NCBI GenBank assembly: GCA_030248225.1
Contig: JASANE010003392.1
Coordinates: forward strand, 1 to 64,000
DNA: 64,000 nt
Reading direction: 5' to 3'
Source of the DNA: Trileptium ribeirensis
Taxonomy: Eukaryota > Nematoda > Enoplea > Enoplida > Thoracostomopsidae
Positions within the stretch are counted from its first letter, which is position 1, and each line of letters starts with the position of its first letter. Position numbers and translations under genes: made by a program. Shown here in pieces: positions 11,864 to 59,830 of the stretch. The notes beneath the pieces are model-generated. The model saw only the letters and a list, made by a program, of their open reading frames with translations. It did not search any database and was not told where the DNA came from.

Positions 11864-12240
11864 CTGGTGCCGTATAGTATTTTACCCTTATAGAATTCCT
11901 CACCCTTCAACTTTTAGCATTTATCTTCCGTAGAATTTCTTCCCCACTAATATATAGCGTTTTATCTCGCGTACAACTATATCTTAAAAAATTATAATTT
12001 AGAATATCCCAAAGAATTACGAATTTTCAACACTTTCAACCCGCCTACCATTCACACCTTCAACACCTGAAAATTCCGAAAATTCTTTGAAATATTCATT
12101 GGAAATTATAATTTTCTAAGCTATAGCTCTACAGAACATAAAATGCTATATGTTAGTGGGGAACGAAATTCTACGGGAGACAAATACTACAAGTTGAAGG
12201 ACAAAATTTTATGGGGAATAAAATACTGTACGACACCAGC
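11864..12240. repeat. Long inverted repeat (foldback structure)
   Basis: The left arm (about 11864-12029) is an imperfect reverse complement of the right arm (about 12068-12240), with a spacer of roughly 40 bp. Matching landmarks include CTGGTG..GTA opposite TAC..CACCAG, TTCCCCACTAATATATAGC opposite its complement near 12145-12163, and CCTTCAACTT opposite AAGTTGAAGG. The right arm is the first unit of the tandem array that follows. Foldback-type transposons are known to have long inverted repeats built from tandem units, which fits this layout. No transposase is present. Confidence 0.75.
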
Positions 12241-13770
12241 TCATAAGAATTAGTTTATTAGACCCAATTTCGAGAAAGTTGACGACTTTATTAATATATC
12301 GACCCATACAGTTTCCTGTACTCATGATATGTTAGTGGGGAACGAAATTCTACGGGAGACAAATACTACAAGTTGAAGGAGAAAATTTTATGGGGAATAA
12401 AATACTGTACGACACCAGCTCATAAGAATTACTTTATTAGGCACAATTTCGAGAAAGTTGACGAATTTATTAATATATCGACCCATACAGTTTCCTGTAC
12501 TCATGATATGTTAGTGGGGAACGAAATTCTACGGGAGACAAATACTACAAGTTGAAGGAGAAAATTTTATGGGGAATGAAATACTGTACGACACCAGCTC
12601 ATAAGAATTAGTTTATTAGGCCCAATTTCGAGAAAGTTGACGACTTTATTAATATATCGCGACCCATACAGGTTCCTGTACTCATGATATGTTAGTGGGG
12701 AACGAAATTCTACGGGAGACAAATACTACAAGTTGAAGGAGAAAATTTTATGGGGAATAAAATACTGTACGACACCAGCTCATAAGAATTAGTTTATTAG
12801 GCACAATTTCGAGAAATTTGACGAATTTATTAATATATCGACCCATACAGTTTCCTGTACTCATGATATGTTAGTGGGGAACGAAATTCTACGGGAGACA
12901 AATACTACAAGTTGAAGGAGAAAATTTTATGGGGAATTAAATACTGTACGACACCAGCTCATAAGAATTAGTTTATTAGGCCCAATTTCGAGAAAGTTGA
13001 CGACTTTATTAATATATCGCGACCCATACAGTTTCCTGTACTCATGATATGTTAGTGGGGAACGAAATTCTACGGGAGACAAATACTACAAGTTGAAGGA
13101 GAAAATTTTATGGGGAATTAAATACTGTACGACACCAGCTCATAAGAATTAGTTTATTAGGCCCAATTTCGAGAAAGTTGACGACTTTATTAATATATCG
13201 CGACCCATACAGGTTCCTGTACTCATGATATGTTAGTGGGGAACGAAATTCTACGGGAGACAAATACTACAAGTTGAAGGAGAAAATTTTATGGGGAATA
13301 AAATACTGTACGACACCAGCTCATAAGAATTAGTTTATTAGGCCCAATTTCGAGAAAGTTGACGACTTTATTAATATATCGCGACCCATACAGGTTCCTG
13401 TACTCATGATATGTTAGTGGGGAACGAAATTCTACGGGAGACAAATACTACAAGTTGAAGGAGAAAATTTTATGGGGAATAAAATACTGTACGACACCAG
13501 CTCATAAGAATTACTTTATTAGGCACAATTTCGAGAAAGTTGACGAATTTATTAATATATCGACCCATACAGGTTCCTGTACTCATGATATGTTAGTGGG
13601 GAACGAAATTCTACGGGAGACAAATACTACAAGTTGAAGGAGAAAATTTTATGGGGAATAAAATACTGTACGACACCAGCTCATAAGAATTAGTTTATTA
13701 GGCCCCATTTCGAGAAAGTTGACGACTTTATTAATATATCGCGACCCATACAGTTTCCTGTACTCATGAT
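12129..13770 (+). repeat. Satellite array, 179/181-bp unit, nine copies
   Basis: Units begin at about 12151, 12330, 12509, 12690, 12869, 13050, 13231, 13412 and 13591, counted at TGTTAGTGGGG. Two variants alternate irregularly. A 179-bp form has ATATCGACCC and usually a cluster of linked differences; a 181-bp form has ATATCGCGACCC. Neighbouring units are nearly identical, so amplification was recent. The short open frames in the units end at the same stop each time, and two 60-codon frames at 12373 and 13455 differ by one residue. I treat these as non-coding. Confidence 0.95.
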
Positions 13771-18339: not shown

Positions 18340-21300
18340 GTGTACTATTACTAACATAGCGGGACGTTACACAATATCTGAACCCACTAATATTTAGCGG
18401 AGAATGGAGGAAATCTTAGCCAAAACCAAATACTATTACTAGCATAGTGGGACGTTACACAATATCTGAACCCACTAATATTTAGCGGAGAATGGAGGAA
18501 ATCTTAGCCAAAACCAAATACTATTACTAGCATAGTGGGACGTTACACAATATCTGAACCCACTAATATTTAGCGGAGAATGGACGAAATCTTAGCCAAA
18601 ACCAAATACTATTACTAGCATAGTGGGACGTTACACAATATCTGAACCCACTAATATTTAGCGGAGAATGGACGAAATCTTAGCCAAAACCAAATACTAT
18701 TACTAGCATAGTGGGACGTTACACAATATCTGAACAACTAACATTTAGCGGAGAATGGACGAAATCTTAGCCAAAACCAAATACTATTACTAGCATAGTG
18801 GGACGTTGCACAATATCTGAACAACTAATATTTAGCGGAGAATGGACGAAATCTTAGCCAGAACCAAATACTATTACTAGCATAGTGGGACGTTACACAA
18901 TATCTGAACCCACTAATATTTAGCGGAGAATGGACGAAATCTTAGCTAAAACCGAATACTATTACTAGCATAGTGGGACGTTACACAATATCTGAACAAC
19001 TAATATTTAGCGGAGAATGGACGAAATCTTAGCCAAAACCGAACACTATTACTAGCATAGTGGGACGTTGCACAATATCTGAACCAACTAATATTTAGCG
19101 GAGAATGGACGAAATCTTAGCCAAAACCAAATACTATTACTAGCATAGTGGGACGTTACACAATATCTGAACAACTAATATTTAGCGGAGAATGGACGAA
19201 ATCTTAGCCAAAACCAAATACTATTACTAGCATAGTGGGACGTTACACAATATCTGAACCCACTAATATTTAGCGGAGAATGGACGAAATCTTAGCCAAA
19301 ACCAAATACTATTACTAGCATAGTGGGACGTTACACAATATCTGAACAACTAATATTTAGCGGAGAATGGACGAAATCTTAGCCATAACCAAATACAATT
19401 ACTAGCATAGTGGGACGTTACACAATATCTGAACCAACTAATATTTAGCGGAGAATGGAGGAAATCTTAGCCAGAACCAAATACTATTACTAGCATAGTG
19501 GGACGTTACACAATATCTGAACCAACTAATATTTAGCGGAGAATGGAGGAAATCTTAGCCAGAACCAAATACTATTACTAGCATAGTGGGACGTTACACA
19601 ATATCTGAACCCACTAATATTTAGCGGAGAATGGACAAAATCTTAGCCAAAACCAAATACTATTACTAGCATAGTGGGACGTTACACAATATCTGAACAA
19701 CTAATATTTAGCGGAGAATGGAGGAAATCTTAGCCAGAACCAAATACTATTACTAGCATAGCGGGACGTTACACAATATCTGAACCAACTAATATTTAGC
19801 AGAGAATGGACGAAATCTTAGCCAAAACCAAATACTATTACTAGCATAGTGGGACGTTACACAATATCTGAACCCACTAATATTTAGCGGAGAATGGAGG
19901 AAATCTTAGCCAAAACCAAATACTATTACTAGCATAGTGGGACGTTACACAATATCTGAACAACTAATATTTAGCGGAGAATGGACGAAATCTTAGCCAT
20001 AACCAAATACTATTACTAGCATAGTGGGACGTTACACAATATCTGAACCAACTAATATTTAGCGGAGAATGGAGGAAATCTTAGCCAGAACCAAATACTA
20101 TTACTAGCATAGTGGGACGTTACACAATATCTGAACCAACTTATATTTAGCGGAGAATGGAGGAAATCTTATCCAGAACCAAATACTATTACTAGTATAG
20201 TGGGACGTTACACAATATCTGAACCAACTAATATTTAGCGGAGAATGGAGGAAATCTTAGCCAGAACCAAATACTATTACTAGCATAGTGGGACGTTACA
20301 CAATATCTGAACCAACTAATATTTACCGGAGAATAGAGGAAACCTTAGCCAAAACAAAATACTATTACTAGCATAGTGGGACGTTACACAATATCTGAAC
20401 CAAATAATATTTAGCGGAGAATGGAGGAAATCTTAGCCAGAACCAAATACTATTACTAGCATAGTGGGACGTTACACAATATCTGAACCAACTAATATTT
20501 AGCGGAGAATGGAGGTAATCTTAGCGAAAACCAAATACTATTACTAGCATAGTAGGACGTTACACAATATCTGAACCAACTAATATTTAACGGAGAATGG
20601 AGGAAATCTTAACCAGAACCAAATATTATTACTAGCATAGTGGGACGTTACACAATATCTGAGCCAACTAATATTTAGCGGAGAATGGAGGAAATCTTAG
20701 CCAGAACCAAATACTATTACTAGCATAGTGGGACGTTACATAATATCTGAACCAACTAATATTTAGCGGAGAATGGAGGAAATCTTAGCCAGAACCAAAT
20801 ACTATTACTAGCATAGTGGGACGTTACACAATATCTGAACCAACTAATATTTAGCGGAGAATGGAGGAAATCTTAGCCAGAACCAAATACTATTACTAGC
20901 ATAGTGGAAGGTTACACAATATCTGAACCAAATAATATTTAGCGGAGAATGGAGGAAATCTTAGCCAGAACCAAATACTATTACTAGCATAGTGGGACGT
21001 TACACAATATCTGAACCAACTAATATTTAGCGGAGAATGGAGGAAATCTTAGCCAAAACCAAATACTATTACTAGCATAGTGGGACGTTGCACAATATCT
21101 GAACCAACTAATATTTAGCGGAGAATGGAGGAAATCTTAGCCAAAACCAAATACTATTACTAGCATAGTGGGACGTTGCACAATATCTGAACCAACTAAT
21201 ATTTAGCGGAGAATGGAGGAAATCTTAGCCAAAACCAAATACTATTACTAGCATAGTGGGACGTTACACAATATCTGAACCAACTAATATTTAGCGGAGA

Positions 21301-21592
21301 ATGGGCGAAATCTTAGCCAAAACCGAAGACTATTACTAGCATAGTGGGACGTTACACAATATCTGAACCAACTAATATTTAGCGGAGAATGGACGAAATC
21401 TTAGCCAAAACTGAATACTATTACTAGCATAGTGGGACGTTACACAATATCTGAACAACTAATATTTAGCGGAGAATGGACGACATCTTAGCCAAAACCA
21501 AATACTATTACTAGCATAGTGGGACGTTACACAATATCTGAACAACTAATATTTAGCGGAGAATGGAGGAAATCTTAGCCAAAACCAAATCC
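18340..21592 (+). repeat. Satellite array, 87/88-bp unit, about 37 copies, inside intron 1
   Basis: The repeated unit contains CTATTACTAGCATAGTGGGA, ATATCTGAACC and TTTAGCGGAGAATGG. The interval between successive GGGACG strings is 87 or 88 bp; the 87-bp form has GAACAACTAAT where the 88-bp form has GAACCCACTAAT or GAACCAACTAAT. Point variants such as GGACGAAAT versus GGAGGAAAT cluster by position: the CGAAAT type is commoner at the ends, and the GGAAAT type in the middle. The array fills much of the 6.5-kb first intron of the EF-hand gene. Confidence 0.95.
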
Positions 21593-22195
21593 TGAACGGA
21601 AAAAACATAAAACAAAAAACAAACTAGCATGAACTCGTTGAAGTGTAGCTGAGGAACGATCGCTATATTATGCCGTCTTTCAACATACCGTCTTACAACC
21701 TAAATCTTGGCCTTTAGCTAAGGTGTTATGAGCCTTCTAATACCAATCCGTAGGGCATTCGTGCATGGAACCACTGAGATTACTATAGCTGTTCTTTTTT
21801 AATGATATAAAATTACGGCTATCAGCTTGACTTGGGCTTTGTTTGAGTCTATTTGGCTAAATATATTTGACATTTGGTCAAAAAATTTCACACTTATTTA
21901 AAGCATGCGCTGCACTGCAATATCATTGAGCGGAATAACTAATCCCCAGATTTGTCTGTTTTTCGAACTAGATCTCAACTCACTGATACTAGTTCCGTAG
22001 GAAATGGATCAATAATCGTAGACTGCATTTCAGAGAGCTGAATACTGTTTTACTAACCCCACAATTGGCGTTGCATCGCATTTGAATTGCTTTGCATTTG
22101 CAATTGTGTGATTATTGATAAAATTACGCCTCTCAGCTTGACTTTGCGCCATCGATACAGGACTTACTAACGTCCTGGACATCTGTGCAGCAAAC
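21593..22195. other. Intron 1 sequence between two satellites
   Basis: Nothing recognisable beyond AT-rich intron sequence. Confidence 0.4.
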
Positions 22196-23396
22196 ACTAC
22201 GCAGCTCTTTGTGTTCAATATGAAAGTCACATAAATATTTTCGATATCGAACAATGCTTCATTTAACAGGTTGTTTTGTTAAAATTTCATCGAGATGATC
22301 AGTTTCTGCTAAAAACTCGTCAATGAAATTTTTTTCGGACAAACTAACCATGTCGAGCGTAAGTGAAATGTACGCTATGCCTTTCTCGATATATACACTA
22401 CGCAGCTCTTTGTGTTCAATATGAAAGTCACATAAATATTTTCGATATCGAACAATGCTTAATTTACTGGTTGTTTTGTTAAAATTTCATCGAGATGATC
22501 AGTTTCTGCTAAAAACTCTTCAATGAAATTTTTTTCGGACAAACTAACCCTGTCGAGCGTAAGTGAAATGTACGCTATGCCTTTCTCGATATATACACTA
22601 CGCAGCTCTTTGTGTTCAATATGAAAGTCACATAAATATTTTCGATATCGAACAATGCTTCATTTAACAGGTTGTTTTGTTAAAATTTCATCGAGATGAT
22701 CAGTTTCTGCTAAAAACTCTTCAATGAAATTTTTTTCGGACAAACTAACCCTGTCGAGCGTAAGTGAAATGTACGCTATGCCTTTCTCGATATATACACT
22801 ACGCAGCTCTTTGTGTTCAATATGAAAGTCACATAAATATTTTCGATATCGAACAATGCTTAATTTACTGGTTGTTTTGTTAAAATTTTATCGAGATGAT
22901 CAGTTTCTGCTAAAACTCTTCAATGAAATTTTTTTCGGACAAACTAACCCTGTCGAGCGTAAGTGAAATGTACGCTATGCCTTTCTCGATATATACACTA
23001 CGCAGCTCTTTGTGTTCAATATGAAAGTCACATAAATATTTTCGATATCGAACAATGCTTAATTTACTGGTTGTTTTGTTAAAATTTTATCGAGATGATC
23101 AGTTTCTGCTAAAAACTCTTCAATGAAATTTTTTTCGGACAAACTAACCCTGTCGAGCGTAAGTGAAATGTACGCTATGCCTTTCTCGATATATACACTA
23201 CGCAGCTCTTTGTGTTCAATATGAAAGTCACATAAATATTTTCGATATCGAACAATGCTTAATTTACTGGTTGTTTTGTTAAAATTTTATCGAGATGATC
23301 AGTTTCTGCTAAAAACTCTTCAATGAAATTTTTTTCGGACAAACTAACCCTGTCGAGCGTAAGTGAAATGTACGCTATGCCTTTCTCGATATATAC
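22196..23396 (+). repeat. Satellite array, about 200-bp unit, six copies, inside intron 1
   Basis: Six units start at about 22201, 22402, 22602, 22803, 23002 and 23202, counted at GCAGCTCTTTGTG. Units are almost identical and differ at a few sites (CTTCATTTAACAGG versus CTTAATTTACTGG, and ATTTCATCGAG versus ATTTTATCGAG). The reverse strand of each unit has a short open frame that always stops at the same place. The unit length is not a multiple of three, so a repeat-coded protein is unlikely. Confidence 0.93.
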
Positions 23397-27015: not shown

Positions 27016-27292
27016 ATGTGACTGTATGCGGGAAAAAGGTTGATATGTCATCAAAATAAGGCGTGTATTATGAAAATTGAAGCAAAATCTGTCGAGTCAT
27101 TGTCAAACTATAGACGATAGCACAACGTTCGCCCTTAACTGGAGCTAAAACCCGCACAATGTATTTATATTTACTATGAGAGCAGCTCATTGAACGAAAT
27201 TTCCTCTTGACATAGATGCACGAGGTTCGAAGTATCAGGGGAATATTGGGTGTTACGGGACGGCATGTCGTGAGCAAAGAATAAATTTTCGA

Positions 27293-27911
27293 AATTGTTT
27301 GAGACTCAAAAATTTTCTTAATTTTTGACAATTTTGCGTCGGTTCTGTTAATTTTCGCTTAATTTTTCGAAATAGTTTGAGACTCAAAAATTTTCTTAAT
27401 TTTTGACAATTTTGCGTCGGTTCTGTTAATTTTCGCTTAATTTTTCGAAATTGTTTGAGACTCAAAAATTTTCTTAATTTTTGACAATTTTGCGTCGGTT
27501 CTGTTAATTTTCGCTTAATTTTTCGAAATTGTTTGAGACTCAAAAATTTTCTTAATTTTTGACAATTTTGCGTCGGTTCTGTTAATTTTCGCTTAATTTT
27601 TCGAAATTGTTTGAGACTCAAAAATTTTCTTAAATTTTGACAATTTTGCGTCGGTTCTGTTAATTTTCGCTTAATTTTTCGAAATCGTTTGAGACTCAAA
27701 AATTTTCTTAAGTTTTGACAATTTTGCGTCGGTTCTGTTAATTTTCGCTTAATTTTTCGAAATTGTTTGAGACTCAAAAATTTTCTTAATTTTTGACAAT
27801 TTTGCGTCGGTTCTGTTAATTTTCGCTTAATTTTTCGAAATTGTTTGAGACTCAAAAATTTTCTTAATTTTTGACAATTTTGCGTCGCTTCTGTTAATTT
27901 TCGCTTAATTT
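27293..27911 (-). repeat. 78-bp tandem repeat, eight copies, open on the minus strand
   Basis: Eight head-to-tail units of 78 bp. Because 78 is 26 codons, one minus-strand frame stays open through all eight (225 codons, 27930-27253), giving a Lys/Leu-rich 26-residue repeat with the core KRKLTEPTQNCQKLRKFLSL. Variants are few, and some change the residue (QKL versus QNL, LKQF versus LKRF). No splice sites, promoter or homologous domain were recognised. The open frame can be explained by unit length alone, so I do not call it a gene. Confidence 0.9.
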
Positions 27912-29423
27912 TTCCCTCCAATCTTTGCATATTCCAAAATTTTTGACGCGCTTTCGGTGCGCGAGGGAGCGGGGAGCTGCGCAGCTTAGGGCAGGATCAG
28001 GCTACTTTCCAGGGGGGTTTACGACGCCAAAAGGGGTGGCCCTATGTATGAAGGAGGTTGATCCTCACTCCCCGCTATGAGCATATATGGCCTAGGTATC
28101 AGATGTTCATCGCGAAATTCGTATATCGCGACTTTTGGCAAAGGCAAAAATTCCTCAATCTCCATCACAACGATACGAATCGGAGCAAGGCGTTGTTACA
28201 CAACCTGATGAAATTCGTACTTATATTTTCATTTAAATATTTATTTTTCAACCGTGCCCTCTTACACATAAAAGTACAGAGCATGATGAATTTTTTCTCG
28301 TTTAAAAATTGCTGGTATTTTATTCCGACCGTGAATGCGTAACCAAAAACACAGAATACCGCATAACATTTTTACCCAAAATTCAAAATAAAATAAAATA
28401 TTGTGAAACGTTCATAATCTTGTAGTCTGACAAGAAATTGGGACATCGTAATGTACCAGTATTTCCGGATAAACCTATACCCAATATTTTATCAAAGCCT
28501 GAGCGAAATTATAGCTAGAACTATTAACAAACATATAGTTTGATTACCCGTTAAGTTGACAAAGTACAGCTTACCGCCGCTAAAATGCTAATAAAGCTAA
28601 ATATTTCCATCAGTAACACGAATTGTTTGGCTGTACAAATAGAAATGGTTAACATGGATTTTGTACCTTTACTTCTAAATCTACCAAAGTACCACGTAAA
28701 TTAATCGTAATAGATACTCCAACCAAATGTTCTTTAAAATAATTTTGGATAAAACTGTGACACTCTGTCATAATAATCCGCTGAAGCTTATATATGTTGA
28801 TGATGCGGTCGTTTTTTGGCTTAGCTCAATGACTACAGGGGCTACCTCTCAAAGGTTCTCCAGGGGTTCTCTAAAATTCACCAATAATAACTAAGGAGCG
28901 TAGAGCAGAAGTAGCAATCACCGGTGGCTCCCGCTGTTGTTTTTAGTACAATTTGTTCTTGTGAACCTTAATGGCTGGTACTGCCGTGGAATCTTGGGAG
29001 TGGGTGTCCGATACCGGTAGAGAACCTTTCGTGTACACTTGCAATCCCTTAGAGGTGGCAGTTTATTTAATGGTGATGTACGGATCCGAATTAAACAAAT
29101 TGTTGAATTAATATGTCAAAATTTAGAGTTTGGGTGCAAAAATTATTTATCTAATAGCAATAATTATACTTTCTTCTATGCCCTTTTAGAGAACGAATGT
29201 GTATTATGCCGCGCTACAATAATAGAAAAATTAGTCTAAAAATAGATTATTTCTAGTCTATAGATTGACATGTAACTCAAGTTTAAATCTATTATATCGA
29301 GGGTAATAATTTTTTATATATTTTAATTCCGGTCAACTGTGTTTTAAAATAATATGCAATTATTTTAGGTTCTTCCACGGCATCTAGTCCATTCCTACAG
29401 CAATATTTTGTTACAAATTTCAG

Positions 29424-38371: not shown

Positions 38372-39488
38372 CAGGGAATAACCGGAACCGTCCATTTAAA
38401 CCGGATCCGGAACATGGTGATCGAAACTTATATATAGCAAAACAGAAGAAGGAAGAAATGAAGGTATAGTGGATTCAAAATGCATTAAAAATAACTTTTA
38501 CATTAAACTTAACGTATTGCGATGGCATTATTGCTTTTCTGAAACTTTAAAGAGACAGAGGAAGCTAATAATGTTTATCTATCGATCAATATATATGTCG
38601 GTTTTTGGATACCCAGAGCAAAGAAATGCCTTCCACTATAACCCTTGTGTATATTGTGTCAAACTGAATATGCTTACAACGCAAGGACTGTAGAATAAAC
38701 ACTTTCGCTCTGTCTCCAGGCGCCTCCCTTTACTACACATACGTTTGTTGCATGTTCTTCTGTAGGAAACTTAAAATTATTGGTTTATATGATTCTAAGA
38801 GAAGATAATAAATAGATAGAAGGTAATTTTCTGATCAGTGGTCAGCGACACTGTTTAGGCTAGCGTTGGACAAATCGTGCCCGTCAGTTAGATCATAATG
38901 ATGATAGGTAACTTTCTAATCAGAATGCTATAAATGAGACACACTGTGATGCTGCTCGCACAGTTTCAATAAATACAGTTCATTGCCAAGAAAGCAGTTT
39001 TTAGCTGCGTTGCAGATAACGTTAGTTTACTTCAATTTAGACTGATTTATCAAGTTTACAAGCGCACTGACGGGTGCTTGACGCAATTTATGTTAGCCAA
39101 GCATACCCTAAGTACTTCTGCGTGAGCCATACTCTGTTACCGAGTTGGACCGGTTTAATTCTAACGTATCCGACAGACTTCTGGATGTGTAAAATAGCTG
39201 CTACAAGCATCGACCTGGTTTTGATTTAACAAACTCCTGCTGGTTATTATGAAAAATTCCTGTTCACATTATGTACCCTACTTACGTTTCACACGGCAAA
39301 TTGGTTAGTTAATCTTTTCTTTTGCTTGGTTGTATTGGAGCTTGATCATTGTATAATATATTACATATGTTTGGATTACAGGATGAAGCAAAAAACGTGG
39401 AAAATTTCCAGCAAAATTTTTAAACCGGAATTCCGGTTCCGGTATGGTTTTTGCCCTTTGCCGGAACCGGAATTCCGGTTACTCCCTG
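38372..39488. mobile_element. hAT-like non-autonomous element, copy A (1117 bp)
   Basis: It begins CAGGGAATAACCGGAACC and ends GGTTACTCCCTG, so the outer 12 bases are near-perfect inverted repeats, and both ends carry CCGGAA/TTCCGG repeats. CAGGG-type ends are common in hAT transposons. The whole interior is colinear with copy B at 44702-45882 (for example TTTTACATTAAACTTA and TTCATTGCCAAGAAAGCAG). No transposase ORF is present. No clear target duplication was found; the right end abuts R1 copy 3. Confidence 0.8.
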
Positions 39489-44701: not shown

Positions 44702-45882
44702 CAGGGAATAACCGGAACCAAAATTTACCGGAACCGGAACCAGCAACCGGAACCGTCCATTTAAACCGGTTCCGGAACCGGAACCTGGTCTTCGAAAATT
44801 TATATATAGTAAAACAGATGCTGGAAGAAATGAAGGTATAGTGAATTTATAATGCATTAAAAATAACTTTTACATTAAACTTATTGTTTTGCGATGGTAT
44901 TATTGCCTTTCTGAAACTTTAAAGAGACTGATGAAGCTAATAATGTTTATTTATCGATCAAATATGTCGATTTTTGGACACCCAGAGCAAAAATGCCTTC
45001 CACTATACACCATTGCATATACTGCGTCAAATCGAATATGCTTACAAAGCTTGGAGCGTAGAATACACACTTTCGCTCTGTCTCCAGTCGCCTCCCTTTA
45101 CTACACATACGTTCGTTGTATGTTCTTCTGTAGGAAACTTAAAATTATTGGTTTATATGATTCTAAAAGAAAATGATAGAAGTTAATTTTCTGATCAGTG
45201 GTCAGAGACACTGTTTAGGCTAGCGTTGAACAAACAGTGCCCGTCAGTTAGATCATAATGATGATAACTTTCTAATCAGAATGCTATAAGTGAGACACAC
45301 TGTTGATGCTGCTCGCACAGTTTCAATAAATACAGTTCATTGCCAAGAAAGCAGTTTCTAGCTGCGTTGCAGATAACGCTATTTTACTTCAAGTTAAACT
45401 GATTAACCAAGTTTACAAGGGCACTTGCGGGTGCCTGACGCAATTTATGTTAGCCAAGCATACCCTAAGTACTTCTGCGTAAGCCATACTCTGTTGCCGA
45501 GTTGGACCGGTTTAATTCAAACGTATCCAACAGACTTCTGGATGTGTAAAATAGCTGCTACAACCATTGACCTGGCTTTGATTTAACAAACTCCTGCAGG
45601 TTATTATGAAAAATTCCTGCTCAAATTTTGTGCCCTACTTACCTTTTACACGGCAAATTGGTTAGTTAATCTTTTCTTTTGCTTGATTGTATTGGAGCTT
45701 GATCATTGTATAATATATATTACATATGTTTGGATTGCAGGATAAAGCAAAAAACGTGGATAATTTCAAACAAAATTTTTAAACCGGAATTCCGGTTCCG
45801 GTATGGTTTTTGCCCTTTGCCGGAACCGGAACCGGAACACGATTTTCGCCGGAACCGGAACCGGAATTCCGGTTACTCCCTG
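44702..45882. mobile_element. hAT-like non-autonomous element, copy B (1181 bp)
   Basis: It begins CAGGGAATAACCGGAACC at 44702 and ends CCGGTTACTCCCTG at 45882. Both ends contain blocks of CCGGAACC repeats, more of them than in copy A. The element is flanked on each side by GCAGTT (44696-44701 and 45883-45888), which looks like a target-site duplication, although hAT duplications are normally 8 bp. Copy B keeps the same non-coding interior as copy A with a few percent differences. No transposase is present, so mobilisation would need a partner elsewhere. Confidence 0.85.
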
Positions 45883-48044: not shown

Positions 48045-48430
48045 ACTGGCCTGTCCATAGTGGGGTGGGCGCGGGGAACCCCACTTTCCAAACCGCCCAT
48101 AATCGTGAGATTTTCCCCCATGTCCGTGAGGTTTACCCCCACGTCTGAAAATTTATGTTTTTTTGTTTGCAAATTGTTTTTTACACATTAATTACCTCTA
48201 TTTGTAATGCTAAAACGTGGTTTTATACAGGGTGTCCGCGCCCTTGAAAAACCTTGAAAGTCCTTGAATTGAAAAAGTTACCCTTGAAAACTTTTGAATT
48301 TGACTAAAACCCTTGAAAACTCTTGAATTTGGGTCTGAAGGCAGCTCCATGTTTTTGTCTTTGAATTTTTTGTTAGAGATTTTGAAAAAAGATGCTAAAA
48401 AATTTTGGCGCTTCGCACCGTTTTGATGTT
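48045..48430 (+). repeat. Two adjoining dispersed repeats
   Basis: 48045-48215 matches the repeat at 46.19-46.38 kb. Directly after it, from CAGGGTGTCCGCGCCCTTG at 48230, is a run of CCTTGAAAA-type words (at least five within 90 bp). Similar words recur at 52165-52225. The CAGGG start and internal CTTGAA repeats suggest another hAT-like end, but no partner end was found. Confidence 0.5.
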
Positions 48431-53569: not shown

Positions 53570-55931
53570 GTCAGTATACACCGGGAATGGTTAGCGGAAA
53601 TAGACTACATCCACTCCACTGATATCGTTGTGATAAGTTATCCTATAGTTTTTAGCAGCAGTTTAATCTCTTAGATTTGACGTTGGATTGCATTGAATTC
53701 AAAATACTTCGTAAAAATTCAAATCATACACACGTACAGACATTGTATATATCATTATACTGACTTTCCTAAATTGCCTTCAAAGTACCTGGGGAGTTGG
53801 GGACCCGTGGGAGTGAGAAATTCGGTTTCCCCAGGTCTAACCGAGGGGACTGAATAACGCGAAAGTGTCATAAATTGACTACTCACAGTAAATAACAATA
53901 ATAATGCTCATTAGAGAAACCTTATAGATTGACAGTGATTATAATAGTTTTATTAGCCCCATAGGCAAAATTTAACTATTTTTTTACTTCCGTAAGGAAA
54001 AATTGGCATATTTTTTGCCTCGAAGAAAAAAACTGGCCTATTTTTATTCGTATAGAAAAATGCTTGGGGCTGAACTGGAGGGAAGCCAAAAATACCTGGG
54101 GGAGGCCGAAATATATACCTGGGCACTAACGAAACATCTAGTGAAACCTATATTACACAGATATAGTCAAGAGAAATATATATGTTATGTACTTGCACAC
54201 CGTAAGTCGATAAATACGCAATAAGCGGGTATATATCCTCAGCTATTCAGCCAATATGGCTGATACTCAGCCCATTTCGTAAGTTGGTGCTCAATAGAGC
54301 TGTCTCTAAAGTCATATTATGTTAAATAAACTTTGCTAAGTTCACGTGAATATAGCCAATCTATCTAAATTGCATATTCAGCACTGAGAATTCTGCACAT
54401 TTTTCATGAGACAAGCAACTAGTTATTCATTAATGGATTTTAAATACTTATATAGATTTGAGAATTTTATTAAAAGTTTCTGTTTTTCGGGGAGACTGGG
54501 TGATTTGTATCCCCTTCTCCTGAAAGCATTTTTGCGAAAAACGTTTTTTGCAATAGTACATCGTATCTGGCTCGTTAGGGAAGTTCAGTCAATTATGAAG
54601 TACCGAAATTATTTTGTCAGGTCACCTCGTTTTCGTAACTATAGTTTAACCTTATTTTTCAAAATTAATTTTTATGGACGTAGACAAGCTTTACAGTTTT
54701 TTAGCGCTATTACTCCAAAGTATGGAACTTTGCATGGCACAATATTGCAAATCATTAGGTTTTACCGAGCACCCACCATTGACTACCAACTTGCATCTCA
54801 TAATTTTACTACCGATAATCAATTTTGTTTTGTCAAACAAGTACATCAAAACTTTGTGACCGGACACTTTGCGGAAAATTTTAGTTCATTAAGTAATTAG
54901 TCCTCGGGGCGTTAATGGGGGCAGGCCTAACTTTCACGTCATCTAATGCTCTATTGGTTTTATAGTGACAGCGCTTGATTTCATAACTCATACAGCCGAA
55001 GCAGTACACGGCTTTGAAATATTGACAGCAGATATATCACACGAACAAAGCTAGGCCAAAAAATATCAAGCTGCCAAGTACAGGAAAAGTGTGGAGCGTT
55101 AAACGGATTGCAAACAATCGGGGAAGCATCATGGGAATACATCGGATTATTGGAGTCGCTCCAGCCCAAACATGTGGAAAATTGGTTTTGTATAGCAACG
55201 AAGGCCTACACTATGCGACCGCTGTCGTAGAAAATAGTTGTCGTGGTGTTTTTTCAGTTCCTAATACCAAAAGATCACGTTGCTTCAAGCACAAACTGTT
55301 TACCGTGTTCAGATTTGGCGCACTTTATGCTGTTGGGACAGCTGTATTACCGGGGCGACGTGGTCTGCAGCTATAGAATCGACTTTCAAGTTTGATTTTC
55401 GTCTTCCTGTAGAGGTTTCTATAGACTACCAAACCTGTCGAATTAGCAGTCACATCTGTCGCGTCCCATACTGTAGTTCGGACTGTGGGGAAAGCCATAG
55501 CAACTATTTACTACAGCAAATGGCATGTTGCTCCCGTTATGCGCCGTCTGAATTCATCAATGTATATACAATTTTTCCAGTGAACAAATATGCCCGCATA
55601 TAAGCCTACTTATCGTCCTGGTGAGGAGAATGTGTTGAGATAAAGCATTGTGATATCACATTAATGAATGTTGAACGCTTAGCTTGCGGTGCCGGTCGGT
55701 ACTTAAACCAGACCGATAACGAGTTGGGTACTGCACATGACTTATTTGTGCAACGCGAAAAAGGGACTCAGTAATGGGCTCCTTTTCAAAGTAATGCGAG
55801 GCTATGCAACGTTGTTGAGAGTATCGACTGGTGTATTGGTATGGTGCGGGGGAGAGCGCTTTTTGGCGTCCAAAAACGCTCATTTTTTACAGTTTTCCAC
55901 ATATTATTCGTCCACCCACTGGTTTTTTGTT
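53570..55931. other. Intron of the second gene, 5' part
   Basis: AT-rich. The open frame at 54406-54900 (164 codons) has no domain and no codon signal beyond base composition. Between 55089 and 55603, two overlapping frames of about 100 codons are GC-richer than the surroundings but unrecognised; they may be the remains of a mobile element. Confidence 0.35.
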
Positions 55932-55935
55932 CCCC

Positions 55936-56068
55936 TGTCACGTAATATTTTGCCCCCCGTGAAAAAATGCCCTCCCGGGCAAATACTCACGTGAAAAATT
56001 GCCCGACCGGGCAAAATTTAACGATCCGAGTGCTGTGAAATTATGCCCGCGTCATGAGATTTTGCCCC
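55936..56068 (+). repeat. Left terminal inverted repeat of the Ginger element
   Basis: Starts TGTCACGTAATATTTTGCCC. Within the repeat the half-site TTTTGCCC/GGGCAAA recurs several times in both orientations (for example CCCGGGCAAA twice), giving a dense set of palindromic sites that transposase could bind. Confidence 0.85.
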
Positions 56069-56154
56069 CACCCCCAAAAGTTAAATCGTATAACCATATG
56101 CATGCACCAGGTACATATCTTTATTTTATATCGTTTTCAGATTTCTAAGTCACA

Positions 56155-57975
56155 ATGCGTAACTATGCATGTATTATCTATCGTTTACAAAATGACAAAT
56201 ATCCTACGCACTTATGGGCTGAGGAAGGAATTGATCCTGAAAACTTTGATGCCATGAAGCGTGAACTCCGTCGGCAGTGCAAATGCTTTAAACTTATAAA
56301 GGGCGTTCTACATTATACCAGTAAGGGTAATCCACAGCGGGTCATTCAGGACCAGGCAGAGCAGCAACGTATTCTGAAAGATGCTCATGACAATCGCGGC
56401 CACCAAGGCATCAATAGCGTTCGAAATTATCTAGCCGATAGTATGGTTTATTGGGATGCCATGGGCGAAGACGCAAAGACGTATGTCAAATCTTGCCATG
56501 ACTGTCAAGTTGTTAACCCTCATGGCTTTGACAAACAGAAGAGAGATTTACATCCGATTCCGGTATCCGAGACTTGGAACCATGTCGAAATAGATCTCAT
56601 TACAATGCCTACCAGCACTAGTTCAAACTGTTATATCCTAACGGTGATTGATTTGTTCAGCAAGTGGGCCAAAGCAGTGCCTATCTCCACTAAATCTGCC
56701 TCTACAATTGCTGCTGCTCTACTGGACATATTTTTGGACATTGGATTTCCGCCGATAATTTCGTCAGACCAAGGCCGAGAATTCGTCAACGGAACTTTGA
56801 CGGAATTGTCTAAGATTAACATGGTAGAGCGACGCGTATCTTCCGCCTATCATCCGCAGACACAGGGCCTTGTTGAACGATTCAACCAAACGTTGCAGCG
56901 AATGATTTTGAAGATGCTGGGAACGCAGGACCATAGCAATTGGGATAGCTACGTCAGATTCGCCACATATGCCTACAATACTGCTGTGCAAGCTTCTACA
57001 AAATACAAACCATTTAAGGTTATGTTTGGCAGGGAGCCTTATCAGGGCAATAAAGAGGGCGATGCTGAGATTTCCGAGGCAGAAACTGTCGAGCGCCTTC
57101 AAAAAACCAGAGAATTGGTTCACGACAAAGTTAAACGGAACATCGAACATGCGCAGGAAGTTCAGAAGGATCAGTACGCCCGAAAAAGATCGTTGAAAAT
57201 ATCGTTCACCCTTGGAAGCATAGTGCTTATGTATAACGCAAAAAAGGCTGGAAGAGCTGGTTCGAAGCTCGAGAAGACATGGCGAGGTCCCTACGTGATA
57301 CACGAAGCGCTGCCAAAGAATCTTTACAAGTTGAAGGATGAAGAAACCGGTTGCATTTTGAATAAAATGGTCAATGCGACGTTGCTAAAACCGTATGTTG
57401 AAAGAAGTGAGTGTGAAACTCTGGGCGAGGTAAAAATTAATCAACCAAGAGCATTTGAACCTCTTAACCCTCAGCAGCTTCGTGCGATTGCACGACAGAT
57501 GGGCATCAAAGGGCCAATTCAGCCACCCCGATTCTATACTTCGTCAAAACTCAGTCGTCCGTTAAAGGTGAAACAGATTGCCGGGGACGGAAACTGTTAC
57601 TTTCGTGCCATATCATACTGTTTGACGGGAAAGGAATCGCATCACGAAATCGTGCGTGATTATATTGTGAAGAACATGGCTTCATACGTGGTTTCGCGTC
57701 AGCTGAGGGATTATTTGACGAAAAACACTGATGATTATTTGAATGATTCAAAAATGGACGTGGTGGGCACCGGGGCAACCGATGCCGAAATTTTTGCCAC
57801 TGCTAGCATTATTGGATTTAACATTGAGGTTTTTTCTGAATTTGGTGGTTCACTTTATTGGCAGTGCTTCAGAAAAGATATGAAGAAGTCGGCTGGTAAA
57901 AAAAGCCTGGGGTCTATTTACCTCGATAACAGTAGCGGAGATCATTTCAACGTAGTGCTCTCTGTTGAGGTGTGA
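56155..57975 (+). CDS. Ginger1 transposase: Gypsy-type integrase fused to OTU cysteine protease
   Basis: Uninterrupted 606-residue ORF. The zinc-binding N-terminus has His78, His83, Cys114 and Cys117 (HHCC). The DDE core has Asp147 (VEIDLIT), Asp205 (SSDQGREF) and Glu241 (GLVERFNQ); Asp205 and Glu241 are exactly 35 residues apart. A GPY/F-type module follows, with WRGPYVI at 376-382. The C-terminal part (about 468-606) is OTU-like, with GDGNCYFRA carrying Asp478 and Cys481, and SGDHFNV carrying His597, the expected catalytic set. Predicted role: nuclear cut-and-paste of the element by binding its terminal repeats; the OTU part would cleave ubiquitin or a ubiquitin-like protein, or cleave the transposase itself, which is inference. 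The ATG at 56155 gives the longest frame; a stop lies just upstream. No disabling mutation is seen. Confidence 0.92.
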   Translation: MRNYACIIYRLQNDKYPTHLWAEEGIDPENFDAMKRELRRQCKCFKLIKGVLHYTSKGNPQRVIQDQAEQQRILKDAHDNRGHQGINSVRNYLADSMVYWDAMGEDAKTYVKSCHDCQVVNPHGFDKQKRDLHPIPVSETWNHVEIDLITMPTSTSSNCYILTVIDLFSKWAKAVPISTKSASTIAAALLDIFLDIGFPPIISSDQGREFVNGTLTELSKINMVERRVSSAYHPQTQGLVERFNQTLQRMILKMLGTQDHSNWDSYVRFATYAYNTAVQASTKYKPFKVMFGREPYQGNKEGDAEISEAETVERLQKTRELVHDKVKRNIEHAQEVQKDQYARKRSLKISFTLGSIVLMYNAKKAGRAGSKLEKTWRGPYVIHEALPKNLYKLKDEETGCILNKMVNATLLKPYVERSECETLGEVKINQPRAFEPLNPQQLRAIARQMGIKGPIQPPRFYTSSKLSRPLKVKQIAGDGNCYFRAISYCLTGKESHHEIVRDYIVKNMASYVVSRQLRDYLTKNTDDYLNDSKMDVVGTGATDAEIFATASIIGFNIEVFSEFGGSLYWQCFRKDMKKSAGKKSLGSIYLDNSSGDHFNVVLSVEV

Positions 57976-58098
57976 AGAAAGAAAGAAGATAAACGAACTG
58001 TGAATAGAACATGTACAAAAGTAACAAAACAATTAATTAAAACAGTTGGAAGGAGATAAAATAACCTGAAAACCTTATAAACCTTTATTCAGTAGAAT

Positions 58099-58230
58099 GG
58101 GGCAAAAATTTACGAACCCGGACACTTTTTTACAGCTGGATATCGTAATTTTTTGCCCGGGGGGGCACTTTCTTACGTGATATTTTGCCCGGGGGACATA
58201 TTCTTACGGGGGGCAAAATCTCACGGGACA
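58099..58230 (-). repeat. Right terminal inverted repeat of the Ginger element
   Basis: In reverse complement it begins TGTCCCGTGAGATTTTGCCC and ends in GTAAATTTTTGCCCC. Its order of GCCC/GGGC blocks is the same as in the left repeat, with substitutions and small gaps. Confidence 0.85.
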
Positions 58231-58234
58231 CCCC

Positions 58235-58830
58235 CACTTTTCAGAAGAGGAATCTCATTATATGAGGGTCCGTGGATTGCAGATCTATCATAGGTTAATT
58301 TTTAGCTTTTTCTACTAAGACTGTGAGGCATCCTTGTTTAAGTTTTATGTTCGCCTTAGTTTATAAGAAATTCACTAAATTATGTTTGTTGCAAAATTTC
58401 AGCTTTACGCTATGTATTTTCTGTTAGTACCTTGTGGCGTCCTCCATGCCACTAAGTGATTTCAGGGCACTGGCTTCTCCAAATTATCAAAATCGAACCG
58501 GAGGGCTTCCCCAGTTCGGAAGTGTGGAGGACGGAAAATACGTGGGGGGGCAAATTCGCCAGTTCACCCGGAGGCCCCATTTAAACTGTAGGGACTATAA
58601 CCGCCAGAAAATACCTAAAGTGACTAATTTGGCAACTGGTTATAATTATGCATTCCTAAAAGGCTAAATTTTTGTTATTTTTAACTTCGAGGGGAAGATT
58701 TAGGGCATTTTTTAGCCAAAATGTGGAAAAATTCGCGTATTTTTAGCCTATCAGGCAAAAATTAGGTTATTAGAATGTGTAACGTAGTTAATATTGTGTG
58801 TTGCCGGGGTGAGATCCTAAATTATATCTG
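58235..58830. other. Intron of the second gene
   Basis: No gene; AT-rich with a GC-rich stretch at 58490-58580. Confidence 0.35.
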
Positions 58831-59830
58831 TGTGTGTGATCGGCCATAAGTCGGGAACGACTTAACCAATTTTTTTGATCTTGGACTCATTCGAACCGGC
58901 ATATTCTATTTACCGTGTACATTTCCGAGCGTTTTTGATTGGAGGTAGTTTTTTTATTTGAGGTCTGGTTCCGTGGTCAAAGGTCAGAATGAGGGTTTTT
59001 ACCCCATTTTAGTACCTTTCCCGGAAGCAAGGTTATTTTTATCTTAACTTTCGAATTTTTTCTCTGGTTGGTTTTATTTCATAGTAAAATGATAAATGCC
59101 AATGCCTCTTTTTCGTTTTTCGGTTAAGGCTCCGGTTCTGGGTTATGGTGTTTGAGGTACGGGGGTATGGCGCCCCCATGGTTCCGCGATCCAAAATTTG
59201 AAAATTTATTCGGAGGTCCTGGGCGGCTGAAAAGTTTCACCTAGAGGCTTTCGGGCATGGCAAACTCATTGCCGGTGTTGGTTTTGCTCTGCCATGGATA
59301 CAGGGTATGACGCCCCATGTGTATGGGTCAGGGTATGGGACAAAATAAGGATTATTTACCATGCTAGTACCCTTCATGGAAGCAAAGTTATTTTTGTCTT
59401 GATTTTCGAATTTTTTTCTCTCTGGTTGGTTTTATTTCATAGTAAAATGATAAATGCCGATGCCTCTTTTTTGTTTTTCGATTAAGACTCCGTTCTGGAG
59501 TTATAAGGTTTGAAGTATGGCAACCTCGTGGTTCCTCGACACAAAATTCGAAAATTTGTTCTGACGTCTTAGGCGGCTGAAAGCTTCGCTTGGAGGTTTT
59601 CGGGCATGGGAAACTCATTGCCGGTGTTGGTTTTGATCTATGACCCATAGTTCCATGGGTACAGGGGCATGGCGCCCCATGGTTCCTCGACCCAAAATTC
59701 CAAATTTTATTATGACGTCCTGTGATGTTGATAGCCCGCTCTTGGAGCTTTTGGGCAATCGGAAGTTATTGTTAGTGTTAGTTTGTATGCTTCTCTACGC
59801 TCTGCAATCTCGAAGGAGTTACTAGTTTTA
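58831..59830 (-). repeat. Dispersed repeat family R2, copy 3, internally duplicated
   Basis: Same elements as the 51.2-kb copy: GTGTGTGTGATCGGCC at 58830, then TTTCTCT.GTTGGTTTTATTT and AGTAAAATGATAAATGCC. The latter pair occurs twice (about 59055-59100 and 59415-59460), followed each time by GGGCATGG.AAACTCATTGCC. This shows an internal duplication of about 360 bp. The element ends around CGAAGGAGTTACTAG. Confidence 0.75.

Follow-up and report, generated by a model that had tools for sequence, protein, structure and literature searches.

Ginger1 DNA transposons, as characterized by Bao et al. (2010, PMC2836005), carry terminal inverted repeats (TIRs) of about 40-270 nt with TGTNR ends and 4-nt CCGG or CCGT duplications, and their protein combines H2C2, DDE, GPY/F and YPYY parts with a C-terminal OTU or Ulp1 domain (PMC2836005). 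Integrase-OTU Ginger1 elements were described in 2010 in Hydra, Aplysia and aphid in the same paper (PMC2836005), so the integrase-OTU fusion itself is not new. For comparison, later papers deal with Imagin (PMC12863088) and IS481EU (PMC10045372), and one further later paper (PMC6431247) was also considered. Here, we analysed a window of 64,000 nt from the nematode Trileptium ribeirensis (contig JASANE010003392.1, positions 1 to 64,000), in which an initial annotation had placed an intact Ginger1 transposon with an integrase-OTU fusion. The element occupies 55936-58230 of the window (2295 bp, TGT..ACA ends), and its sequence and copies argue that it is very probably an intact Ginger1 DNA transposon of a recently mobile family. 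Its features are as follows.

55932..55935, unstranded: left 4-nt target site duplication, CCCC (read in the sequence; boundaries match other family copies)
55936..56068, plus strand: 5′ terminal inverted repeat, 133 nt, start TGTCACG
56155..57975, plus strand: transposase ORF, 606 aa, single exon, stop included
56350..56520, plus strand: HHCC (H2C2) zinc-binding domain, residues 66-122 (Pfam PF17921)
56581..56856, plus strand: integrase catalytic core (rve), Pfam match residues 143-234 (Pfam PF00665)
57220..57396, plus strand: GPY/F region, residues ~356-414, strands in the model (sequence and structure model)
57583..57924, plus strand: OTU cysteine protease domain, Pfam match residues 477-590 (Pfam PF02338; structure model)
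58099..58230, minus strand: 3′ terminal inverted repeat, 132 nt, ends CGGGACA
58231..58234, unstranded: right 4-nt target site duplication, CCCC (read in the sequence)

The two TIR arms aligned with 100 identical positions in 136 columns, 7 of which were gap columns, and their local score was 119, whereas 500 shuffles reached at most 43, which bears out the TGT-starting repeats of about 133 bp in the initial annotation. At 133 and 132 nt, both arms lie within the 40-270 nt of Ginger1; the 5′ end reads TGTCA and fits TGTNR, and the 3′ end, TGTCC, has a C in place of R. Over ungapped columns, the arms agree at just 77.5% of positions. However, 13 of the 15 family places have a 5′ arm that is 99-100% identical as far as it is present, indicating that the asymmetry is a family trait and not decay of the window copy. 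The matching flank that had been annotated was found as CCCC on both sides, with ends that agree with those of other family copies. These flanks lie in C-rich surroundings, off the published Ginger1 preference and two positions away from CCGG; taken on its own, the CCCC duplication is weak evidence, and the boundaries are fixed, as far as sequence goes, by the other family copies.

The 606-aa ORF contains no internal stop and corresponds, in its size and its H2C2, DDE and GPY/F parts, to the one transposase of some 500-800 aa that characterizes Ginger1. All the parts ascribed to it beforehand, HHCC, DD35E, GPY/F and the OTU Asp, Cys and His, were located by Pfam, residue positions and structure models. 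The Integrase_H2C2 match (1e-12, above the family cut-off) is accompanied by the HHCC residues H78, H83, C114 and C117. The rve match (1.2e-12, above the family cut-off) includes D147 and D205, with E241 just past its end, and 35 residues separate D205 and E241 (DD35E). The GPY/F motif reads WRGPY at residues 376-380. Near the N-terminus, before the zinc finger, Tyr-Pro at 16-17 is followed by aromatics, as in aligned relatives, a candidate counterpart of the published YPYY.

The closest solved relatives were the Ty3 and foamy virus integrases, which the structure model also matches, a likeness that speaks for a fragment of a Gypsy-type LTR retroelement. We nevertheless regard such a fragment as extremely improbable, since the searches alongside it gave no RT, RNase H, gag or LTR, the terminal repeats are inverted and not direct, and an OTU domain stands at the C-terminus. 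Pfam scans for RT or gag neighbours returned no family in six open frames at 49.0-54.9 kb, and from the element to the end of the window there is no other frame of at least 130 codons. When LTRs were sought, no direct repeat around the element in 54500-59800 was longer than a 23-nt pair. Thus, the RT, gag and direct LTRs of Gypsy were not found in these searches, in agreement with the lack of retroelement machinery claimed at the outset. Moreover, a tree of 37 integrase rows, with midpoint root, several long branches and the published Hydra sequences left out, separated 9 Gypsy-type rows from the 28 others, the window's included, with support of 100/99. Six of the Gypsy-type rows carry PF00078, two carry other retroelement domains, and P0061 was assigned by name only; it is against these nine rows that the window integrase clusters apart from Gypsy.

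We then consider the copies of the element in its own assembly (687,459,628 bases in 20,229 contigs), where 62 matches to the element were obtained. Copies with the same ends, which an intact transposon would lead one to expect, were present: the window family, picked by high identity, comprises 15 places including the window. Twelve of them are near full length with 96-100% identity, two (C18698 and C6250) have internal deletions, and C9809 holds an end piece only; six of the 15 lie at contig ends. Both flanks are visible in nine places, and the 4-nt flanks match in eight of these, being CCGG in six, CCGC in one and CCCC in one (the window), so the target duplication anticipated in the initial annotation is upheld. 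The exception, the copy at C15267:34545, has unmatched flanks (GCGG/ACGG), and the final letters of the copy at C9249:50533, which lie past the BLAST edge, were read by eye. At the family level, the duplications correspond to the CCGG or CCGT/ACGG of Ginger1, the window copy itself having CCCC.

Pairwise differences among 14 compared copies ranged from 0.31% to 4.95%, nine of the copies being all less than 1% apart in a star-like pattern around the C12109 copy. The full 606-aa frame was retained in 3 of the 15 places (window, C12109 and C16781), which differ pairwise by 5 to 8 coding changes; these are mostly nonsynonymous, as is the expectation for copies soon after insertion. Given that nine copies are less than 1% apart and three ORFs are intact, we infer that the family moved recently, in line with the recent or current activity that had been read from the intact copy. 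A genome search with the 5′ TIR found no short non-coding copies (MITEs), the 24 matches among the best candidates all being ends of known copies. Two contigs, C15267 and C9249 (L011, L019, L014, L017), each carry two family copies that share their 3′ flank, the second copy standing at the end of the contig, and these pairs may represent local duplication or an assembly artefact.

Empty sites were sought by joining the flanks of 16 elements with a single copy of the duplication and comparing them with the collected sequence. Matches across the joined junction were obtained for two elements, the C16781 copy and L054. The joined flanks of the C16781 copy match the window repeats 39290-39488 and 45648-45842 at about 76%, through the junction and with a single CCGG; we read these repeats as empty sites of the C16781 copy within the same repeat family, which reveal its ends and its 4-nt duplication. 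The joined flanks of L054 matched solely its own repeated flanks. For the window copy, a 70%-identical paralogue on C11690 has both flanks near each other and no element between them; at its junction, 155 nt of the joined window flanks face 88 nt without alignment. These results bear on whether the ORF could be a captured host gene derived from Ginger1 and no longer mobile, as Gin-1, Gin-2 and Imagin are, such domestications being known (PMC2836005; PMC12863088). The near-identical copies, the TIRs, the target duplications at different sites and the intact DDE residues all oppose this, and for the window family the copies and empty sites already refute it, leaving a captured gene with next to no probability.

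The genome also contains more distant relatives. A transposase protein search gave at least 80 matches, many at 31-60% identity, with 72 of the 5019 first-look candidates scored. Ends were sought in 14 further loci, and convincing TGT..ACA ends were found in ten of these, but not at L035, L036, L041 (contig start) or L047 (near a contig end). Together with L054, 11 sister elements have ends, and matching 4-nt flanks occur in 10 of the 11 (CCGG in nine, GCGG in one), counts that are not independent of the choice of ends because the score favours arm likeness and matching flanks together; in the remaining element, L042, the flanks differ (CTGG/CCGG). Three protein pairs are close (L049/L051, 97%; L035/L044, 96% over 236 codons; L040/L041, 97%), and with each pair counted as one family there are about ten Ginger1 families besides the window's. 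A search for viral-contig relatives gave 11 stretches that fit the pattern, none of them confirmed.

L054 is complete at 2382 bp, is flanked by CCGG and has ends of the same type; no OTU match was found in it. Its C-terminus gave neither a Pfam Ulp1 match nor a PDB sequence match, and over 170 residues it shares 30% identity with the Ephydatia protein P0010, which has a PF02902 record; by this likeness the C-terminus appears Ulp1-like, and L054 appears to be of the Ulp1-bearing Ginger1 kind. In a tree built from 403 integrase columns, L054 grouped with the OTU-bearing L048 and L051 with support of 100/100. Since it groups with OTU-bearing kin, one protease seems to have replaced the other within this group, in either direction. 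A third protease class on such an integrase was seen in P0008 from Strongylocentrotus purpuratus, which joins a Ginger1-like integrase to a UCH ubiquitin hydrolase domain.

Of the two C-terminal domains of Ginger1, OTU and Ulp1, the window element carries OTU. The Pfam match (3.2e-07, above the family cut-off) includes C481 and D478, the Asp of the DGNC motif, which we take to be the catalytic Asp, and H597 lies just past its end. The matches listed for the full-length model were integrases only, and the OTU part was therefore folded separately; folded alone, it gave a pLDDT of 93 with OTUD3, OTUD1 and DUBA as the best structural matches. Sequence and model thus give the domain an OTU fold with Asp, Cys and His. 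In an alignment of 13 rows, neither Cys481 nor His597 varies, and in a separate alignment of 14 rows all three residues are invariant. A pattern that required Asn-Cys found the OTU motif in 14 of 16 own-genome loci, with Asp in 11, Glu in one (L034, where the OTU Asp is expected) and Gly in two. Across seven between-family pairs, with synonymous sites saturated, dN was 0.50-0.68 in the OTU part versus 0.44-0.68 in the rest of the protein, and the OTU value was the higher in five. Given that OTU dN is about that of the rest of the protein across families, the domain has been kept over long times.

A different picture was obtained in the L040 family, where Gly replaces the OTU catalytic Asp in all seven copies examined. 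Four of the seven also have in common a 1-nt deletion in a run of A before the OTU part. These four frameshifted copies are found on different contigs, differ in their flanks and diverge by 0.54-1.18%, and no substitution sets them apart among the seven examined copies; the deletion may be a recurrent event or a sequencing error. Programmed frameshifting at the A run was considered and dropped, as no supporting sign was found. The sequences of this family indicate that it multiplied despite the lost Asp, so full OTU activity in cis may be dispensable, or the copies may have been moved in trans. Together with the Glu of L034, the L040 copies would suit an OTU domain that is a passenger, useful in some hosts or once, with no part in present transposition. 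We hold this to be unlikely, however, because Cys and His are invariant in both alignments above and Asp in that of 14 rows, the OTU and integrase parts evolve at about the same slow rate, and L054, which lacks OTU, bears a Ulp1-like protease at the same place.

The TIRs themselves have an internal order. With a family matrix, the 5′ TIR was resolved into seven CGTgAgATTTTGCCC-like boxes, each about 15 nt long, in the order > > < > < > >, and the 3′ TIR into seven boxes in the mirror order; a fixed seed recovered 13 of the 14 boxes of the window element. A loose box pattern gave six matches in the window versus 6.0 expected; at this chance level, a pattern of that sort does not pick out the box. 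Eleven elements, the window's and 10 sisters with ends, L054 being left out, were compared. The self-match of their terminal 200 nt peaked at a lag of 32 nt (mean z 4.7), and 32 nt is about three turns of B-DNA. At lag 31-33, z exceeded 3 in 7 of the 11 elements versus none of 44 interior pieces of the same elements; the window element reached 2.9, and L042, L044 and L052 were lower. The best 15-letter word was more frequent than the shuffle maximum in 7 of the 11, the window count being 13, whereas 60 shuffles gave at most 9. Identity at lag 31-33 averaged 0.49 within an element; the same place compared across elements gave 0.38, and other lags gave 0.26. The close kin L049 and L051 are counted twice in these averages, and the sequences hint that boxes homogenise within a family. 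Taken together, we read the TIRs as arrays whose boxes are specific to each family; a period of close to 32 nt marks 7 of the 11 elements and is less pronounced in the window element.

Slippage or gene conversion could also leave reiterated boxes, as by-products that bind no protein. The box sequence does vary between families, C and A runs favour slippage, the window is among the four elements not above z 3, and in four elements (L038, L042, L044 and L049) the box count is at or below the shuffle maximum. On the other hand, the 31-33-nt lag recurs despite differing boxes and is missing from the interior pieces, the window is among the elements whose box count exceeds the shuffle maximum, and the first two boxes share an orientation and lie 16-18 nt apart in 17 of 22 arms, a count that is descriptive because family matrices chose the boxes, with a held-out test equally weak. 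By-products of this kind therefore seem to us rather improbable as the source of the arrays, and we retain protein-binding boxes as the working reading.

Several other repeats were noticed in the window. Two CGTGAGATTTTCCCCC-like boxes at 48104-48145 resemble, by eye, the ends of the L050 Ginger1 family and are perhaps a remnant. In the stretches 11871-12236 and 12148-13770, two inverted ends with iterated boxes of Ginger-like appearance (CTGGTGYCGTA..., by eye) can be made out, and the right one seems to have given rise, by amplification, to a 181-nt satellite present in 9 copies. Large satellite arrays, 96-98% alike, occupy 18343-21590 (88 nt x 37), 22194-23396 (200 nt x 6) and 27282-27914 (78 nt x 8). 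An open frame on the minus strand at 1031-1435 looks by eye like the end of a LINE reverse transcriptase, with no Pfam family above the cut-off.

We propose that the N-terminal and GPY/F parts of the transposase would bind the reiterated boxes in both TIRs, that several protomers would draw the element ends together, and that the DDE core would then excise the element and insert it with a 4-nt stagger into GC-rich targets, mostly CCGG. The OTU domain might, quite possibly, remove ubiquitin or a similar modifier from the transposase complex, or else from repair and chromatin proteins at the site, and would thereby most likely shield the complex from degradation; this role of the OTU domain is the least certain step of the scheme. 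More tentatively, and as a reading that we would sooner doubt than rely on, Ginger1 ends may be arrays of transposase-binding boxes, with palindromic units of about 32 nt (three turns) behind a direct tip pair and many protomers per end, and, separately, removal of a ubiquitin-like modifier may be a true transposition step. The first part would follow from boxes that diverge between families and keep their spacing, on which many protomers would assemble per end; the second would follow from a protease that is exchangeable (OTU, Ulp1, perhaps UCH) but usually kept. Mu and Tn7 likewise combine an rve-type DDE transposase with ends that hold several binding sites; they are bacterial and multi-protein, and their likeness to the window element would be one of layout only.

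Because the window family is young, with some copies intact, its ends exact and its targets known, it offers a workable start for biochemical tests of Ginger1 transposition, and the same material could address why a transposase carries a deubiquitinase-like domain. For the protease question, the sister families, one protease-swapped and one OTU-crippled, are natural comparisons. Ginger1 integrases further bear on the origin of retrotransposon integrases and of the domesticated genes Gin-1 and Imagin. To judge from the sequences, the box arrays, the protease swap and the OTU-crippled L040 family are the parts that a specialist may not expect. A search of the text of PMC2836005 for six terms denoting iterated or subterminal repeats found none of them.

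Compared with known systems, the window element has the integrase fold and GPY/F of Gypsy/Ty3 LTR integrases, but no RT, gag or LTR was found with it. It has H2C2, DDE and TGTNR ends in common with Ginger2/Tdd, which in PMC2836005 is described without GPY/F and YPYY and as targeting AT-rich sites (RTATAY), whereas GPY is present here and the targets are GC-rich. The Ulp1-bearing Ginger1 elements of Hydra (Ginger1-4 to -10 and -12; PMC2836005) have the same integrase part, the window element having OTU instead. The closest match is with the OTU-bearing Ginger1 elements (Ginger1-1, -2, -3 and -11_HM of Hydra; Ginger1-1_AC; Ginger1-1 and -2-AP) described there (PMC2836005), with which it shares H2C2, DDE, GPY/F and a C-terminal OTU, as well as TIRs of 40-270 nt, TGT ends and 4-nt GC-rich duplications. 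It differs from the published elements in that paper (PMC2836005) in being shorter (2295 bp versus about 2.6-7 kb), in having no intron versus one to four in the OTU-bearing families of its Table 1, and in the CCCC flanks of the window copy versus CCGG/CCGT. Overall, by its H2C2, DDE and GPY/F parts, its OTU domain, its TIRs, its duplications and its clustering, the window element fits Ginger1.
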